The notes beneath the pieces were generated by a model. It did not search any database. It was not told the origin of the DNA and saw only the letters and a program-made list of their open reading frames with translations. Of a stretch of DNA of 24,166 nucleotides, positions 3,921-22,739 are shown piece by piece. How positions within the stretch are numbered: position 1 is the first letter of the stretch; every line of letters begins with the position of its first letter. This DNA comes from a virus: positions 1 through 24,166 of IMG/VR virus record IMGVR_UViG_3300031952_000137. One strand, 5' to 3'. The translations under genes were made by a program, and so were the position numbers.

Positions 3921-5000
3921 ATGCCACTGCCGAAGCCAGAAGACGATGAGACCAAGGACGACTTCATAGATCGCTGCATGAGCGACCAGACGATGAACGA
4001 GGACTTCCCCGACCAAGACCAGCGGCGGGCCGTCTGCGAATCCCAGTGGGATAAAGACAAGGAGGGCTCGGCGGGGATGGCCCTAACAGGGCGCCCGTGG
4101 GCAATCATGCCCAGTGTCCTCTACGGGATGATCGAGCGTGTGAAGGCGGGCAATCCCTTCCAGGCGGGTCCGACACCCACGGCTTCCCGCAGGGGCACGG
4201 TGGCGGTGCTGCCGATCTATGGGACGATCACACAGAAGGGCGGCGGCGGGTTCCTGGACTTCCTTATGGGGTCAGGCACGAGCACCGAGAAGTTCGGCGC
4301 CCTCTTCAGTCAGGTCATGGCGGACGAATCGGTCAAGGCCGTGATCCTTGACATCGACTCCCCGGGCGGCTCCGTCTTCGGCGTGCCTGAGCTGGCGGAT
4401 ACCATCTTCAAGGCGCGGGGCGGCAAGCCCATCATCGCGGTTTCCAACTCCCTCGCTGCCAGCGCCGCCTATTGGCTGGCAACCCAGGCGGACCAGATCG
4501 TCGTCTCCCCATCGAGTGAGATCGGGTCAATCGGCGTCTATGCCCTACACGAAGATATCTCGGAGATGGTCAAGGGCATGGGGGTTGCGGTGACGCTGAT
4601 CTCTGCGGGGAAGCACAAGACCGAAGGCAATGAGTTCGAGCCCTTGGGCGAAGAGGCGCGAGATGCGATCCAGGCGCGGGTCGATGACTACTACGGCATG
4701 TTCGTCAAGGCCGTGGCCCGTGGCCGGGGAGTCATGGAGTCGGCAGTGCGCGGCGGCTTCGGCGAGGGCCGGGTTGTGGGCGCGGTAGACGCCGTGAAGT
4801 TGAACATGGCGGACCGCGTGGCGACGCTTAACCAGACGCTCCAGAGATTCGCTGGAAGCGGCGGGGCAACGATGCTTGCCGAGGAGCCGGTTGAGATTCT
4901 GGCGGAGGCGGAGCCGGTAGTTGTGGCCGAGGAGACCCCGCCTGAGAGCAAGGGCGAGTCGCTGGACATCCGGCGGCGACGGCTGGAGTTGGCGCGATAG
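3921..5000 (+). CDS. Prohead protease, S49 (SppA/ClpP-like) family, with N-terminal extension
   Basis: This serine protease matures the procapsid by cutting scaffold and capsid delta domains. The S49 core covers about residues 90-310. DSPGGSVFGV (146-155) is the oxyanion/strand motif, NSLAASAAYW (176-185) holds the likely nucleophile Ser181, and ISAGKHKTEGN (227-237) holds the likely general-base lysine (Lys231 or Lys233). Residues 1-45 are an extra segment with DDFIDRCM and FPDQDQRRAVCESQW, a cysteine-bearing motif I recall from the N-termini of other phage prohead proteins. Residues 315-345 are acidic and proline-rich and could act as a scaffold-like tail. GGAGGTGA at 3906-3913 lies 7 nt before ATG 3921. 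An internal ATG at 4078 would give a form lacking the extension. Confidence 0.9.
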   Translation: MPLPKPEDDETKDDFIDRCMSDQTMNEDFPDQDQRRAVCESQWDKDKEGSAGMALTGRPWAIMPSVLYGMIERVKAGNPFQAGPTPTASRRGTVAVLPIYGTITQKGGGGFLDFLMGSGTSTEKFGALFSQVMADESVKAVILDIDSPGGSVFGVPELADTIFKARGGKPIIAVSNSLAASAAYWLATQADQIVVSPSSEIGSIGVYALHEDISEMVKGMGVAVTLISAGKHKTEGNEFEPLGEEARDAIQARVDDYYGMFVKAVARGRGVMESAVRGGFGEGRVVGAVDAVKLNMADRVATLNQTLQRFAGSGGATMLAEEPVEILAEAEPVVVAEETPPESKGESLDIRRRRLELAR

Positions 5001-5011
5001 GGGGATAGCAA

Positions 5012-5359
5012 ATGCGACGAGGATTTTCACCAGCAGAACGTGGCCGCCGTGGTGGTCTAACGACGCGTGCCCACTACTCACCTGGGTACTTGAGGACTGG
5101 GGATGATGAGCGCGAGTTCAGCGCTGAGGAAATGGCAGACCTTGATAGTATTGAGGCATTGATGATGCCTCCTCATAGTTCACCTGCTGAGATGACGGCC
5201 CCCGCGAGAGATGCGTTTCTACAGTCACTCGTTCCTGCCGATATCGGATTGAGTGGCGAGGAGACCGAGCGATTGGCACGAGAGGCGCGGCGGCAACATT
5301 GTGCCAAAATGGCACGAACTCGCTGGGATAAACGGAAGGGGCTTGACAAACCGGAGTAG
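5012..5359 (+). CDS. Hypothetical protein between protease and capsid genes
   Basis: I do not recognise this 115-residue protein. It starts MRRGFSPAERGRRGGLTTR, is basic at the N-terminus and acidic in the middle (DDEREFSAEEMADLDSIEALM), and ends with a charged helix (ETERLAREARRQHCAKMARTRWDKR). No signal peptide or membrane segment is seen. AGGGGGAT at 4999-5006 is a good ribosome-binding site 5 nt before ATG 5012, and the gene is co-oriented in the operon, so it is probably real. Its position between protease and major capsid suggests a head-assembly accessory role, but that rests on context only. The -35 box of the capsid promoter lies inside its last codons. Confidence 0.7.
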   Translation: MRRGFSPAERGRRGGLTTRAHYSPGYLRTGDDEREFSAEEMADLDSIEALMMPPHSSPAEMTAPARDAFLQSLVPADIGLSGEETERLAREARRQHCAKMARTRWDKRKGLDKPE

Positions 5360-5371
5360 GCGCTTTATCAT
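5343..5371 (+). promoter_or_regulatory. Near-consensus sigma70-type promoter for the capsid gene
   Basis: TTGACA at 5343-5348 is a perfect -35 hexamer. After exactly 17 nt comes TATCAT at 5366-5371, one mismatch from TATAAT. Transcription would start at about 5378 and give a leader of roughly 170 nt before the capsid ATG. It is the best + strand promoter I found in the window and sits in front of the gene needed in highest copy. Whether it acts in the host, or only in lysogens or late infection, is not shown by the sequence. Confidence 0.65.
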
Positions 5372-5377
5372 CTAAGC

Positions 5378-5550
5378 AGATCATGACATAGTGGTCTTCA
5401 GCCGGACGGCTTCGACGAGTTCTGAAGGCTGAAGGCGACACAGAGATAGCGGCTTTGACGAGTCGCGTTCCCTGTAACCGCAAAACGTGCGGTGCGCAGG
5501 GCGCGGCTTTTTTGTTGCCCTTCGCACCGAGATAGCGAAGGAGTAACGAC
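5378..5550 (+). ncRNA. Structured 5' leader of the capsid mRNA (possible cis-regulatory RNA)
   Basis: This 170-nt stretch has no credible reading frame but several RNA structures. Arm 5394-5403 pairs with 5427-5436 (core CTTCAGCC/GGCTGAAG, extended by G-U and G-C). ACCGCA 5477-5482 pairs with TGCGGT 5488-5493. A larger hairpin pairs 5490-5502 with 5517-5529 (12 of 13 positions) and holds a run of six T (5508-5513) in its loop. It shares bases 5490-5493 with the smaller hairpin, so the two cannot coexist. A near-identical 14-mer occurs at 5407-5420 and 5450-5463, and GAGATAGCG at 5443-5451 and 5529-5537. AAGGAG at 5538-5543 is the capsid ribosome-binding site. An attenuator, translational control element or stability element are all possible. 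Confidence 0.45.
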
Positions 5551-6858
5551 ATGGCCACCTTGTGGCAGAAACTCATGCAAGAGAAGGCCGACCTCGTTGC
5601 CAGAGGGAAGGCCATTCTCGACGCGGCTGAGACTGAAGGCCGCGATTTGGCTGCTGAAGACTCGGCAGCCCTCGACGAAATCGATACGCGGATGCAGGCG
5701 CTCGGCCCCCAACTGGCGAGCGTCGAAGCCCAGCGCGAGCGCGAGCGCACCATGCCCGGCGCCGTGGCTTCCCCCGACCCGATAGTGGAGCGGGCCAAGT
5801 TCAAGACCTGGGGCGAGCAGCTTCAGGCAGTCGTGCGGGCCGCAGCGGGTGAGATTGACCCCCGGCTGACGCGGGTCAACGGCGACGGCGGGATCATGGC
5901 CGCAACCGGTATGAGCGAGGGCATCCCCGCTGACGGCGGGTTCCTCGTCCAGATCGACTTTGCGAGTGAGTTGTTGCAGCGCACCTACGACTCGGGCCTC
6001 GTGGCCGGTCGCTGCCGGCGAATCCCGATCAGCGCCAACTCCAACGGCCTCAAGATCAACGGGATCAACGAGACCAGCCGGGCCGACGGCTCGCGCTGGG
6101 GCGGCATTCTGGCGTACTGGAAGGCTGAGGCGGCTGCGAAGGCGGCCTCCGCTCCCAAGTTCCGCCAGATCGAACTCAACCTCAAGAAGCTCATTGGCCT
6201 CTGCTACGCCACTGATGAGCTGCTCCAGGACGCAAGCGCCCTCGGCGCCATCATCAGCGCCGGCTTCGCAGAGGAGTTCGCCTTCAAGATCGACGATGCG
6301 GTCATTGAAGGCACCGGCGCGGGACAGCCGCTGGGAATCCTCAACAGCGGTGCTCTCGTAACCCAGGCGGCGGAAGGTGGGCAACTAGCCCGAACCGTCG
6401 TGATCCAGAACATCGTGCAGATGTGGTCGCGGCTGGACCCGCGGTCGAAGGCCAACTGCGTCTGGTTCGTCAACACCGACGTTACCCCCCAGCTCTATAC
6501 CCTGGCGCTGGCCGTGGGTACGGGCGGGGCTCCGGTCTTCATGCCCCCGGGCGGCTTGGCCGATGCGCCTTACGCACGGCTGTTCAACCGGCCGGTCATC
6601 GAGATCGAGCAGTGCTCCACGCTGGGCACGGTCGGCGACATCATCCTCGCCGACATGAGCCAGTACTTGCTCATCGACAAGGGCGGGATTGAGGGTGCCA
6701 GCTCGATCCACCTGAAGTTCAACTACGACGAGACGGTCTTCCGGTTCGTCTACAGGGTTGACGGGCAGCCCACCTGGGCGGCTTCGGTAACCCCGTTCAA
6801 GGACGCGGCCACGACCAGGACAATCTCGCCGTGGGTAGCCTTGGCGACAAGGGCCTAA
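5551..6858 (+). CDS. Major capsid protein, HK97 gp5-like
   Basis: This is the main shell subunit with the HK97 fold. Residues 1-70 are a helical, charged delta-like domain (LMQEKADLVARGKAILDAAE, DEIDTRMQALGPQLASVEAQRERER) that normally serves as a built-in scaffold and is removed by the protease. The shell domain follows: EGIPADGGFLVQIDFASELL, LKKLIGLCYATDELLQDASA, the conserved GTGAGQPLGIL (about 252-262) and WSRLDPRSKANCVWFVN, then a C-terminus with FRFVYRVDGQPTW. The 435-residue length is typical of capsid proteins that carry their own delta domain. AAGGAG at 5538-5543 lies 7 nt before ATG 5551. The gene has its own upstream promoter and long leader, and the S49 protease gene lies two genes upstream. 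Confidence 0.95.
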   Translation: MATLWQKLMQEKADLVARGKAILDAAETEGRDLAAEDSAALDEIDTRMQALGPQLASVEAQRERERTMPGAVASPDPIVERAKFKTWGEQLQAVVRAAAGEIDPRLTRVNGDGGIMAATGMSEGIPADGGFLVQIDFASELLQRTYDSGLVAGRCRRIPISANSNGLKINGINETSRADGSRWGGILAYWKAEAAAKAASAPKFRQIELNLKKLIGLCYATDELLQDASALGAIISAGFAEEFAFKIDDAVIEGTGAGQPLGILNSGALVTQAAEGGQLARTVVIQNIVQMWSRLDPRSKANCVWFVNTDVTPQLYTLALAVGTGGAPVFMPPGGLADAPYARLFNRPVIEIEQCSTLGTVGDIILADMSQYLLIDKGGIEGASSIHLKFNYDETVFRFVYRVDGQPTWAASVTPFKDAATTRTISPWVALATRA

Positions 6859-6880
6859 GAGGGATTAGGAGGAGGATAAA

Positions 6881-7357
6881 ATGTCTTACCCGTGGAGTCT
6901 AGCTCAGAACTGCAAGATCGTTGCCGCGATCAACCCGTCGGCGGGCGCGGCTGTAACCGGCGACTATGTGTGCTTGAAGAACGCGCACAAGTGCTGGGTC
7001 TTGATCGGGTCTAGCGGTGGAAACGCGACTGCGGCCACCTTCGGGATCAACGAGGCGACGGCCGTGGCCCCTACGGGCGCAGTCGCAAGCACGGCTCTGT
7101 TCCCGAACTGGATCAACAACAGTTGTGCAGTGACGGACACTCTCGTCAAGGGGGCGGATGCCGCAACCGTGACGACAGACGGTCTCGCTACCCCAAAGGT
7201 GATCGTCATTGAGGTCGACCCGGCTCTATTGTCGGCTGGTTTCGACTGCATCGCCGTGACCGAAGGCGCATCGAACGCGGCCAACATCACAGCGGCTGTC
7301 TACATCATAGCCGAGCGATACCAGCAGGCGACACCGCCATCGGCGATCCTCGACTAG
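6881..7357 (+). CDS. Putative head decoration or accessory protein
   Basis: The 158-residue product starts MSYPWSLAQNCKIVAAINPS and continues GDYVCLKNAHKCWVLI, which looks like beta-strands rich in Ala, Thr, Val and Gly. It has no signal peptide, membrane helix or catalytic motif. Proteins with this SLAQNCKIV...GDYV.LKNAHK opening are, from memory, common directly after capsid genes in phages, but I know no established function. AGGAGGAGG just upstream of ATG 6881 is a very strong ribosome-binding site, which fits high expression next to the major capsid gene. A decoration or stabilising role is inferred from position, size and composition. Confidence 0.75.
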   Translation: MSYPWSLAQNCKIVAAINPSAGAAVTGDYVCLKNAHKCWVLIGSSGGNATAATFGINEATAVAPTGAVASTALFPNWINNSCAVTDTLVKGADAATVTTDGLATPKVIVIEVDPALLSAGFDCIAVTEGASNAANITAAVYIIAERYQQATPPSAILD

Positions 7358-9687: not shown

Positions 9688-10065
9688 ATGCCGCACGCCG
9701 ATCCGCAGAAAAGACGCGAATATGAAGCCGCTTACATGAGGGGATGGCGAGCCAGAAACTCAGCGAAGGTCGCGCAGTACGGCAAGGATTATCGCAAGAG
9801 AGTGCGTTCCCAGATAATCGAAATGTATGGCGGTAAGTGTGCCTGCTGCGGTGAGACAGAACCGCTGTTCTTGACGATTGACCACATCAACGGTGGGGGG
9901 AAAGTTCATCGGCAGCAGTTTCGTGGCATCCAGTCATTCTACTTCTCGTTGAAGAGGGAAGGATTCTCAAACGATTATCGCTTGTTGTGCTGGAACTGCA
10001 ATTCAGGTCGCTATTTTAACGGCGGTTCATGCCCTCATCAAGATAAGGGCGGGAGCGGGCTATGA
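9688..10065 (+). CDS. HNH endonuclease, free-standing
   Basis: The 125-residue protein has a basic helical N-terminus (RREYEAAYMRGWRARNSAKV) and an HNH core: CACCGE (residues 51-56), the catalytic stretch LTIDHINGGG with DH, and a second zinc pair in LLCWNCNSGR. This is the zinc-containing HNH group common in phages, either as small homing nucleases or as packaging partners when next to terminase. Here it sits among head-tail connector genes, which favours a selfish insertion. The coding sequence is visibly less GC-rich than its neighbours. GGAGG at 9674-9678 lies 9 nt before ATG 9688. Its stop overlaps the next ATG. Confidence 0.88.
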   Translation: MPHADPQKRREYEAAYMRGWRARNSAKVAQYGKDYRKRVRSQIIEMYGGKCACCGETEPLFLTIDHINGGGKVHRQQFRGIQSFYFSLKREGFSNDYRLLCWNCNSGRYFNGGSCPHQDKGGSGL

Positions 10066-15206: not shown

Positions 15207-15572
15207 TTATTCGCCGTTAAGAATGCGGCTGCACTCCTCCATGAGCATGTTCCCGACGCGCAATTTGTCGCCGGGGCTTGCTGTCTGGCCGGGGACCGCT
15301 GTTTGGGCAGGGAATGGCGTCGAAGTCGGACCAATCTCATCGGGACTTGCATCTATGACTTTCACCGTGTCCTCAGCCGACAATCCCTGGATGCTTCGGC
15401 ACAATGCAGGTGCGGCAGAGTCGGTCAGGATCACTCGCACTTGGAGCCGCATAGCCGATTCCGTGGTATCAAAGCCCTTCATGTGCAAGACCCTATCCGA
15501 TTTCGTATTCCCGCCGCCGCACGCCGCCGCTCCCAGCGCAAGTGCGGCTATGAGAACAATCGTCCATTTCAT
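15207..15572 (-). CDS. Small secreted lipoprotein on the opposite strand (moron)
   Basis: The 121-residue product has a clear type II signal: MKWTIVLIAALALGAAAC with a lysine, a hydrophobic core and a lipobox-like AAAC at residue 18, followed by GGGNTKSD. The mature part is small, with LHMKGFDTTESAMRLQVRVIL, a Pro/Thr-rich stretch near residues 82-100 and cysteines at 58 and 114 that could pair. AGGAG at 15585-15581 on the minus strand is 8 nt before its ATG. It is the only convincing reverse-strand gene, with its own extended -10 promoter, so it fits a lysogenic-conversion moron. Phage lipoproteins that block superinfection are known (TP-J34 Ltp, T5 Llp), but no sequence identity to them is claimed. 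The + strand ORF overlapping it is judged a shadow. Confidence 0.8.
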   Translation of the reverse strand: MKWTIVLIAALALGAAACGGGNTKSDRVLHMKGFDTTESAMRLQVRVILTDSAAPALCRSIQGLSAEDTVKVIDASPDEIGPTSTPFPAQTAVPGQTASPGDKLRVGNMLMEECSRILNGE

Positions 15573-20498: not shown

Positions 20499-22739
20499 AT
20501 GGCGAACCCAGCGTCCGATATTCGGGCGGAAGTCCTTGCACGCCATCCCGATGCCGTTCTCATCGAGCGTGGCCTGAGTCATCTCCGGCACCAGCTCCCT
20601 GACCTCGACGGTAGGCAGCGCTTTGTTCTGAATGCCGTCATCGGGGCGCTGCACTACAAGGACGACAAGGCAGAGTGGCAGGAGATAGATGATGCCCTTG
20701 AGGACGACGGCGCTGAGGGGTTCAGCGTCCGCACGGGACACACCGGGCACCTGCTACGGATGGCGGCGGACGGCAAACGTCGCCTCTACCCGAACCGTTA
20801 CGACCTCACTCGCTATGTGGAGTTCTCCGCCCTACCGAGCGTGGGGACTCCGCAGCGGGGCGAGAACTACCTGGCATGGGACAGGCCCCACTTCGCCGTC
20901 AAGATGTTCTCCGGCGGCACCTGCGTCAAGTTCCTCTTCCTTCTCAAGGATGCGTCGGCTCCCACCAGCGTCAGCTTCAATGTTACCCTGGTCGGCCTGA
21001 CACGGCAGGGGCGCTTCCTGCTGGCGGACGGCGTGCCCGTGGCGGAGATGCGCCTGCCGACCGCTGTTGACGCGGCAGGGACGGAACGCGACTGCACCTT
21101 CACCCTCAGTACGGGGAAGGTAACGATCAGCCTCGATACCACCGGCCTCGCCTTCCCCATCGAGATCGACCCGACGGTGGACGTGCAGGTCGGGGCAAGT
21201 GGCGATGATGGATACAGATATTCCACCTCCTACTTCAACGTGGTCGCCACCTCCATGACTGTAGGTTACAGCGGCAGCGCCCGTCGCGGTTTCTATCGCT
21301 GGACTGGTGTAACACTCGCAGGGACGATTGATGTCTCCTACGTCCAGGTTTACCCCGGCAGTGCCGCAACTGGGATTCCCCAGCTAAAGATAAGAGGTGT
21401 TGACGAAGATAACCCAGCAGCACCAACAACTTATCAGCAATTCGACGCTGACCCCTTAACCGCTCACGGAATCGATTGGGATGGTGCTTGGACTGAGAAC
21501 CAATGGGCTCAGTCCCCTTCCCTGAACGACATCTTCCAAGAGTTGGTAGGCTCCTACACCATCTCCAACGATGCCGTCATGCTCCAGATAAACGACGATG
21601 GGGGGGTCGATAACAACTACCAGACGGTACGCACCTGGGACTACAACACTCACGGGTACGGCGCGAAACTCCACATCGAATACTCGGTCGGCGGCGGCGC
21701 GACGGTTCTTGCGGTTACGGCTCAGGCTACAGCCGAAGCCCTGCTGCCCACGATTACAACCGTCCGCAGCCCAACGATATTGGCCGTCACCGCAGAGGCT
21801 ACCGCCGAAGCGCCGCTCCCGACGATAGGGATATTCAAGACCGTCTTAGCCGTGACAGCCCTAGCGGTGGCAAGTGCCCTACTACCTACTATAGCCGCAG
21901 TCCGCAGCCCAACCGTCGCGGCCGTGACGGCGGAGGCGGCGGCGGCGGCTCCACTGCCGACCATCACTGCTGGCACCGGCACCACCGTTTTGGCCGTCAC
22001 CGCAGAGGCTACGGCAGACGCCCTGCTGCCGGCCGTAAGTACCATCCGTAGCCCGACCGTCTTAGCGCTCACGGCTGAGGCAACAGCCTTGGCTCCCGCG
22101 CCGACGATCACTGTTGGAGTTACCGCAACAATCCTTGCCGTGACAGCAGAGGCAACGGCGGATGCCTTGTTGGCCACAGTAGCAACTATCCGTAGCCCCA
22201 CGGTTCTGGCGGTTACGGCAACGGCCACGGCAGACGCCCCACTCCCCACGATCACCGCTATCAGGAACCCGACGGTTCTGGCAGTGACAGCAGAGGCGAC
22301 GGCAACATGCCCCCTACCTACGGTTACAGCTATTAGAAACCCCACCATCCTTGCAGTCACGGCCGAAGCCGCGGCTGCTTGCCCGGTCCCTACCGTAGCC
22401 GCTATCCGCAGCCCAATGATCCTTGCGGTTACAGCGATTGCAACCGCTATGGCCCCGGCGCCGACTATCACTGCCGGCGGGCTGGGGGTTGTCCTGGCAG
22501 TTCCGGCCGAGGCGATGGCGGCGGCTCTGTTGCCCGCAATCAGCACTGAATTGCCGAGCCTTCTTTCACTGTCCGCATCGTATGAGCCGACCCTTTCGCT
22601 CTCGGCATCACAGGAATCATCTATCGCGCTGTCCGCATCGTATGAGCCGACCCTTTCGCTCTCGGCATCACAGGAATCATCTATCGCGCTGTCCGCATCG
22701 TATGAGCCGCAACTAGATTTGGAGGCGAGCTATGGCTGA
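20499..22739 (+). CDS. Large modular tail fibre/receptor-binding-like protein with tandem repeats
   Basis: The 746-residue protein has three parts. Residues 1-232 include ALHYKDDKAEWQEIDDAL, YLAWDRPHFAVKMF and FPIEIDPTVDVQ, a beta-rich phage surface region. Residues about 233-398 form another module: RRGFYRWTGVTLAGTIDVSY, LKIRGVDEDNPAAPTTY, LTAHGIDWDGAWTENQW and AKLHIEYSV. Residues 402-687 are twelve repeats of about 24 residues on the theme TVLAVTAEATADALLPTI, followed by a short tail built of LSASYEPTLSLSASQESSIA repeats. No enzyme motif is seen. AAGGGG precedes ATG 20499. The end overlaps the BppU-like gene by 8 nt. A host-surface or glycan-binding fibre is the best guess. Confidence 0.78.
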   Translation: MANPASDIRAEVLARHPDAVLIERGLSHLRHQLPDLDGRQRFVLNAVIGALHYKDDKAEWQEIDDALEDDGAEGFSVRTGHTGHLLRMAADGKRRLYPNRYDLTRYVEFSALPSVGTPQRGENYLAWDRPHFAVKMFSGGTCVKFLFLLKDASAPTSVSFNVTLVGLTRQGRFLLADGVPVAEMRLPTAVDAAGTERDCTFTLSTGKVTISLDTTGLAFPIEIDPTVDVQVGASGDDGYRYSTSYFNVVATSMTVGYSGSARRGFYRWTGVTLAGTIDVSYVQVYPGSAATGIPQLKIRGVDEDNPAAPTTYQQFDADPLTAHGIDWDGAWTENQWAQSPSLNDIFQELVGSYTISNDAVMLQINDDGGVDNNYQTVRTWDYNTHGYGAKLHIEYSVGGGATVLAVTAQATAEALLPTITTVRSPTILAVTAEATAEAPLPTIGIFKTVLAVTALAVASALLPTIAAVRSPTVAAVTAEAAAAAPLPTITAGTGTTVLAVTAEATADALLPAVSTIRSPTVLALTAEATALAPAPTITVGVTATILAVTAEATADALLATVATIRSPTVLAVTATATADAPLPTITAIRNPTVLAVTAEATATCPLPTVTAIRNPTILAVTAEAAAACPVPTVAAIRSPMILAVTAIATAMAPAPTITAGGLGVVLAVPAEAMAAALLPAISTELPSLLSLSASYEPTLSLSASQESSIALSASYEPTLSLSASQESSIALSASYEPQLDLEASYG
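21702..22559 (+). repeat. Twelve 24-codon repeats in the fibre gene
   Basis: Eleven units of 72 bp and one of 66 bp encode TVLAVTAEATAxAPLPTI followed by a short spacer that often reads TAIRSP or TAIRNP. The protein pattern is well kept while the DNA has diverged, so this is an old repeat array under selection. The regular strand-like periodicity suggests a repetitive rod or beta-solenoid-like stalk. Confidence 0.85.
22569..22709 (+). repeat. Perfect 60-bp tandem repeat, 2.35 copies
   Basis: Units 22569-22628 and 22629-22688 are identical over all 60 bp, and 22689-22709 repeats the first 21 bp. The unit starts CTGTCCGCATCGTATGAGCC and encodes LSASYEPTLSLSASQESSIA in frame. Identity at silent sites shows a recent duplication. 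Confidence 0.95.

Follow-up and report, generated by a model that had tools for sequence, protein, structure and literature searches.

The 24,166 bases analysed here (the window) make up a virus record of IMG/VR and come from an uncultivated phage. Its head module comprises a terminase, a portal protein, an S49 peptidase (3921–5000), an ORF without a Pfam match (5012–5359) and an HK97-type capsid gene, which is taken to be the gene controlled by the leader that separates it from ORF 5012–5359. Folding of positions 5360–5560 returned −86.6 kcal/mol, compared with −65.0 ± 4.0 kcal/mol for dinucleotide shuffles (z −5.39, 0/200). A first-pass annotation had described two competing hairpins in this leader, and both are present where it placed them: ACCGCA (5477–5482) pairs with TGCGGT (5488–5493), and a larger hairpin shares positions 5490–5493 with it and holds the U6 run (T6 in the DNA) in its loop. 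That annotation did not include the promoter, the twin hairpins P1 and P2 or the hairpin over the Shine–Dalgarno (SD) sequence (Table 1).

Table 1. Features of the capsid leader and the gene that follows it in the window
Feature	Position	Strand	Details
Sigma70-type promoter	5343–5371	+	TTGACA 5343–5348, 17 nt spacer, TATCAT 5366–5371; 11/12 consensus matches
P1 hairpin	5394–5436	+	Outer stem 5394–5403/5427–5436; loop motif CTTCGACGAG 5410–5419
P2 hairpin	5440–5475	+	Outer stem 5440–5443/5472–5475; inner stem 5449–5455/5460–5466; loop motif CTTTGACGAG 5453–5462
Intrinsic terminator	5462–5513	+	GTCGCG 5462–5467/CGCGGC 5502–5507; CCCTG 5470–5474/CAGGG 5497–5501; ACCGCA/TGCGGT 5477–5493; T6 5508–5513
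Hairpin spanning the U run	5490–5529	+	CGGTGCG 5490–5496/CGCACCG 5523–5529, extended by GGGC 5499–5502/GCCC 5517–5520
SD hairpin	5514–5547	+	Covers Shine–Dalgarno AAGGAG 5538–5543; −17.4 kcal/mol
Major capsid protein gene (HK97 type)	5551–6858	+	Pfam PF05065 Phage_capsid, E 9.7e-48

The promoter is the sole promoter-like site in 4900–6900 (0.3 expected). As it ends at 5371, we infer that transcription starts near 5378, and start positions are predicted likewise for the leaders generally. A two-codon frame, ATG-ACN-TAG, lies in the 5′ part of the leader (5383–5391) and is kept in the window and in two related leaders, L003 and L027. In several subgroups of promoter-type leaders, the predicted start is followed by a short element resembling TGAATAGG or GACATAGNGG.

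The terminator hairpin (5462–5507, predicted ΔG about −30 to −31 kcal/mol) ends exactly at the T6 run, and a U-run hairpin lies at the corresponding place in the window's relatives. The leader has an intrinsic terminator between promoter and capsid gene, the arrangement of a terminator-type transcription attenuator, and the U run lies only 30–45 nt before the start codon, so transcripts from the visible promoter must traverse the terminator. The terminator that the first-pass annotation had proposed, GCGC (5494–5497) with GCGC (5501–5504), is a pairing that exists and is followed by GGC and the T run, but as a terminator it does not rise above chance (two terminator-like sites in the 2-kb region vs 1.2 expected in shuffles). 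Nor can the 5490–5529 hairpin act as an antiterminator, since its 3′ strand is transcribed only after the U run, too late to prevent termination. The suggestion of a structured capsid leader that has mutually exclusive forms and the logic of an attenuator stands; the terminator and the candidate antiterminator are other hairpins than those suggested.

Searching viral contigs with the capsid and the protease revealed leaders homologous to that of the window in L003 (75.6 % identity over 197 columns) and L027 (85.1 % identity over 215 columns). In L027 the leader is retained in spite of a different set of genes between protease and capsid. A G-rich tract, with GG every ~5 bases and variable bases between (strand G 0.43–0.44 vs C 0.21–0.23, over a slightly longer stretch), precedes the capsid promoter in L003 (approximately 2560–2790) and L027 (approximately 5320–5560); the window has ORF 5012–5359 at that place.

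The core of the leader consists of P1 and P2, whose loops carry the motif CUYYGNYGAG (CTTYGACGAG, repeated, in the window). In a MAFFT alignment of the window, L003 and L027 (subfamily A, a small sample), 5/10 pairs of the P1 outer stem show changes of both partners while every cell stays paired, and two-sided changes occur in three pairs of P2 and in 2/12 pairs of the SD hairpin. The covariation score was reached by 0/500 shuffles for P1, terminator and SD hairpin together and by 3/500 for P1, P2 and the spanning hairpin; resting on three sequences, this is limited evidence. Covariation in both alternative stems, which the first-pass annotation had named as support for switching, was thus seen in subfamily A for P1, P2 and the SD hairpin but not for the large 5490–5529 hairpin, 10/11 pairs of which are invariant in the three sequences. 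The terminator of subfamily A displays one-sided, wobble-preserving changes, L003 having lost 3 of the 11 pairs that form its outer and middle stems, and draws no support from two-sided changes among the three sequences.

Wider alignments point the same way for the twin hairpins. A MAFFT alignment of twelve twin-hairpin regions had 81.7 % paired cells vs 72.6 % in shuffles (0/500) and a covariation of 0.281 vs 0.167 (0/500), with slid controls reaching at most 48.9 % paired and a covariation of at most 0.136; 61/500 shuffles had at least as many pairs with two-sided changes as the alignment itself. Among 28 P1 cores (L413, L417, L340 and L416 left out), 6/7 pairs had two-sided changes and the covariation was reached by 0/500 shuffles; against one slid control there were fewer cells with two-sided changes (10 vs 13) and more paired cells (79.6 vs 40.8 %), in rows that had been cut around the loop motif, which favours the alignment of that motif. 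The pairs closing the P1 loop covary, from CU/AG to GU/AC in L392 and to CG/CG in L397, and by eye those closing the P2 loop read CG/CG in L419 and AG/CU in L004. The P2 loop is missing from L395 and L414, and neither hairpin of L413 or L417 carries the motif. A DNA operator reading was rejected, as several P1 outer pairs pass through G-U, favouring RNA. A kissing interaction between P1 and P2 was also dismissed as a general feature, the loops being complementary, by eye, in only about six leaders.

The family extends well beyond subfamily A. In a set of 175 non-redundant sequences preceding the starts of related capsid genes, the loop motif was found in L001 (the window), L003, L027, L004, L028, L030, L034 and L247, with two copies in each except L004. 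A capsid-blind pattern scan, in which hairpin stems before a capsid-like ORF were accepted and others outside long frames (e.g. L295) rejected, yielded, among the matches listed, L306, L296, L341/L379 and L340/L354 as well as repeats of known leaders. The remaining leaders came from a capsid-profile scan (36 loci) and a second pattern (65 stretches); profile-scan loci without a recognised leader include L390, L393, L398, L402, L406, L410 and L415. From another pattern (57 stretches), only the known leaders L048, L049 and L102 were accepted, most of the other stretches lying inside ORFs.

Sorted by eye, the family comprises 18 promoter/terminator leaders, grouped on those features (window, L003, L027, L004, L419, L395, L414, L385, L387, L397, L411, L412, L392, L413, L417, L247, L296 and L306), and at least 11 simpler ones, all upstream of HK97-type capsid genes. 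The promoterless leaders are L028, L034, L030, L354, L340, L404, L407, L409, L416, L418, L420, L436 and L443; L452 has a single hairpin, and L016, similar by eye, was left out. Promoter-type leaders run in the order sigma70 promoter, P1, P2, intrinsic terminator, U run, SD hairpin and capsid start, with the order of promoter, P1, P2, terminator and SD hairpin common to all 18, many of which have no evident sequence similarity to the window's leader. The best promoter pair contains an exact TTGACA in 16/18, and a strict TTGACA-N16-18-TANNNT rule holds in 10/18 of this set, itself grouped partly by the promoter trait, and within 300 nt upstream in 0/167 capsid loci without the leader. U runs are short or weak in 4/18 (L306, L296, L411 and L412).

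A model (R1) built from the twelve aligned regions recovered L387, L411 and L412, which lay outside its building set, at E 2e-6 to 5e-6; L397 was matched only at E 0.002, and L395, L414 and L419 were not significant. Strong R1 matches (E < 0.001) occurred once per record having any, in 10/17 records searched whole. When R1 was run on bacterial genomes (296 from the class of L247 and 350 from the phylum of L251), L247 itself was also found, and seven matches (L422–L428) were judged false, there being no capsid gene in the surrounding stretch; as false scores reached 34 bits, genomic context is needed below about 36 bits. R1 detected no leader in three of the nearest annotated capsid loci (Dagobah, ppBdUSDA122-1 and Kronos), and the window's leader DNA gave only 31-nt chance-level matches to the phage collection. 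On a quick tree of 75 capsids, leaders are patchy among leader-less capsids, four changes being needed per leader type; leader-bearing capsids therefore do not form a single clade, and the scatter suggests gain, loss or exchange of the leader.

The 3′ strand of P2 falls within the 5′ arm of the terminator, so the two are mutually exclusive and P2 is a candidate antiterminator, a role that we consider likely. Minimum-energy folds computed as the RNA lengthens show P2 earlier than the terminator apex, and at the U run the terminator takes the place of P2, in 18/18 leaders; in the window, the terminator is followed by P2 with the spanning hairpin at 5529 and, finally, by the terminator with the SD hairpin. 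The full-length fold favours the OFF form (−76.3 vs −67.1 kcal/mol). This fold switch supplies the upstream helix exclusive with the terminator that characterises attenuators, but not beyond shuffled upstream sequence at p 0.05: upstream pairing of the terminator 5′ arm averaged 0.69 vs 0.51 with shuffled upstream sequence and exceeded the shuffle mean in 17/18 leaders, without reaching significance (Fisher p 0.11, 10 representatives). Because the RNA is so GC-rich, some pairing of this arm is expected regardless. The lack of significance in this control is in keeping with a fixed, unregulated partial terminator, where promoter and terminator would set a constant capsid dose and P1 and P2 would serve as a stabilising 5′ structure, as is the terminator-like hairpin found within 200 nt upstream in 18/167 capsid loci without twin hairpins. 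A passive structure, however, needs no such strong conservation of the loop and of two hairpins across diverged leaders, and we judge a constant dose improbable.

The spanning helix can form between the terminator's 3′ part and the bases that separate the U run from the start codon. Most subfamilies have a counterpart at the same position with different sequences: CGGTGCG/CGCACCG in the window, GGCGTTTCGGGG/CCCCGCAACGCC in L004, GTGGCG-N-GCGGA/TCCGCCGCCAC in L385 and L397, GTCCGGGG/CCCCGGAC in L414 and GCCCGGC/GCCGGGC in L392. Compared with shuffled downstream sequence, the combined p was about 8e-7 (10 group representatives, treated as independent), with L247, L296, L306 and L412 not significant alone, and in a swap test most partners taken from another group did worse than a leader's own, L306 being the exception. 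The spanning helix is real and conserved. Such pairing of the terminator arm with sequence beyond the U run would be needless for a free small RNA, which bears on whether the leader could be a trans-acting RNA of about 130 nt that ends before the capsid gene by chance. Its own promoter and strong terminator would suit such an RNA, yet in promoterless members no start for a separate leader transcript is visible, and every accepted member lies directly before a capsid start (partly through selection, many having been found via the capsid gene). A trans-acting RNA thus appears very improbable.

At the level of translation, the SD core is at least partly covered by the SD hairpin in most leaders, L306 and L417 being exceptions. 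Freeing of the SD sequence by the spanning helix was rejected as a general rule, this helix being in the minimum-energy fold only at intermediate length and in 4/18 leaders (window, L027, L414 and L411). With the outer terminator pairs forbidden, it formed in 0/18 full leaders and did not free the SD sequence; together with the favoured OFF fold, this makes the translational lock weak as a switch. At least 11 leaders have twin hairpins with no visible promoter or U run, as would suit an autogenous translational operator, whereby the capsid (or protease or portal) protein would bind the twin hairpins and the terminator would merely trim or insulate transcripts. The motif CUCC can, by eye, pair with the SD sequence in several leaders (9 bp in L030; 6 bp in L418 and L420), but any GGAG offers CUCC a partner. 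The long proteins shared by all eight leader-bearing contigs compared are limited to portal, S49 protease and capsid, the other eight-contig clusters being antisense frames by their coordinates; these contigs are fragments, however, so a regulator located elsewhere would be missed. The promoter and strong terminator flanking the twin hairpins in 18 leaders also argue against such an operator, which we consider unlikely.

We regard it as probable that the leader is a cis-acting transcription attenuator before the major capsid gene. Under attenuation, the sigma70 promoter would start the RNA and P1 and P2 would fold first; if these were held, transcription would proceed into the capsid gene, and otherwise it would stop at the U run. 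The holder might be a phage or host RNA-binding protein that reads the two CUYYGNYGAG hairpins, as with BglG-type antiterminators. In RNA that has passed the terminator, the hairpin over the ribosome-binding site would form a second barrier, and the helix spanning the U run would be an alternative that may open this site. The conservation of the twin hairpins, and the promoter, terminator and SD hairpin with their order and overlaps, emerge from computation; regulation of the switch, the direction in which it works and the factor sensed are inferred. Two computed controls, the pairing with shuffled upstream sequence and the folding with the terminator forbidden, leave some elements of this model unsupported. 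It is conceivable, though doubtful, that twin-hairpin RNAs form a hitherto undescribed class gating major capsid protein synthesis across several phage lineages, controlling transcription in certain phages and translation in other ones, with a structural protein (capsid, protease or portal) as the sensor; head assembly would then report back on capsid output. The matching of capsid output to assembly in tailed phages is usually ascribed to promoter strength and gene order. With a conserved RNA switch, capsid output would be controlled directly at its gene, within a defined element of 130–170 nt, and the leader is a candidate for a new RNA–protein or RNA–ligand pair.

The closest known systems each share some of these traits. 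In the RAT leaders of BglG, SacY and LicT, a hairpin with internal loops lies upstream of an intrinsic terminator with which it shares bases, and holding the hairpin leads to read-through. Set beside them by description rather than by motif, the capsid leaders likewise have a hairpin just upstream of the terminator that shares bases with it and whose holding would mean read-through, but they carry two hairpins with the same loop and precede a phage capsid gene. Like riboswitches and protein-sensing leaders, they combine one conserved core with differing expression platforms (terminator type and SD type); unlike them, they match no Rfam family. The tandem hairpins with like loops are reminiscent of the guanidine-II (mini-ykkC) riboswitch, which consists of two hairpins with ACGR loops at transporter genes, whereas the loops in our alignments read YYGNYG, there is no Rfam match and the genes encode capsids. 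Mu-gpT-DE RNA is also a structured RNA beside a phage head gene, but is named as a downstream element, while the window's leader lies upstream of its gene and does not match an Rfam model. At the curated threshold, Rfam release 15 returned no matches in the window and 18 other loci, in line with the earlier suggestion of a new class; the window's leader had no match at E up to 5, and L385 and L411 had only far sub-threshold ones. No description of such a capsid leader was found in the literature searched, an absence within that search and not proof, and a search for the word 'capsid' in PMC2864571 and PMC8040213 gave no occurrence. The leader RNAs constitute a real, conserved and apparently undescribed family.

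Elsewhere in the window, a small ORF (2222–2380) encoding a hydrophobic protein of 52 aa overlaps the end of the terminase gene, and relatives of 56–61 aa occupy the same place in four of the seven other leader-bearing contigs compared. An ORF among the head–tail genes (9688–10065) resembles an HNH endonuclease by eye (CxxC, DHINGGG), and one on the minus strand (15207–15572), opposite to the structural genes, has a lipoprotein-like signal (LGAAAC). Finally, the 3′ part of ORF 20499–22739 contains tandem repeats (22196–22709) with a period of 60, perfect over 2.3 copies, and also a period of 72.
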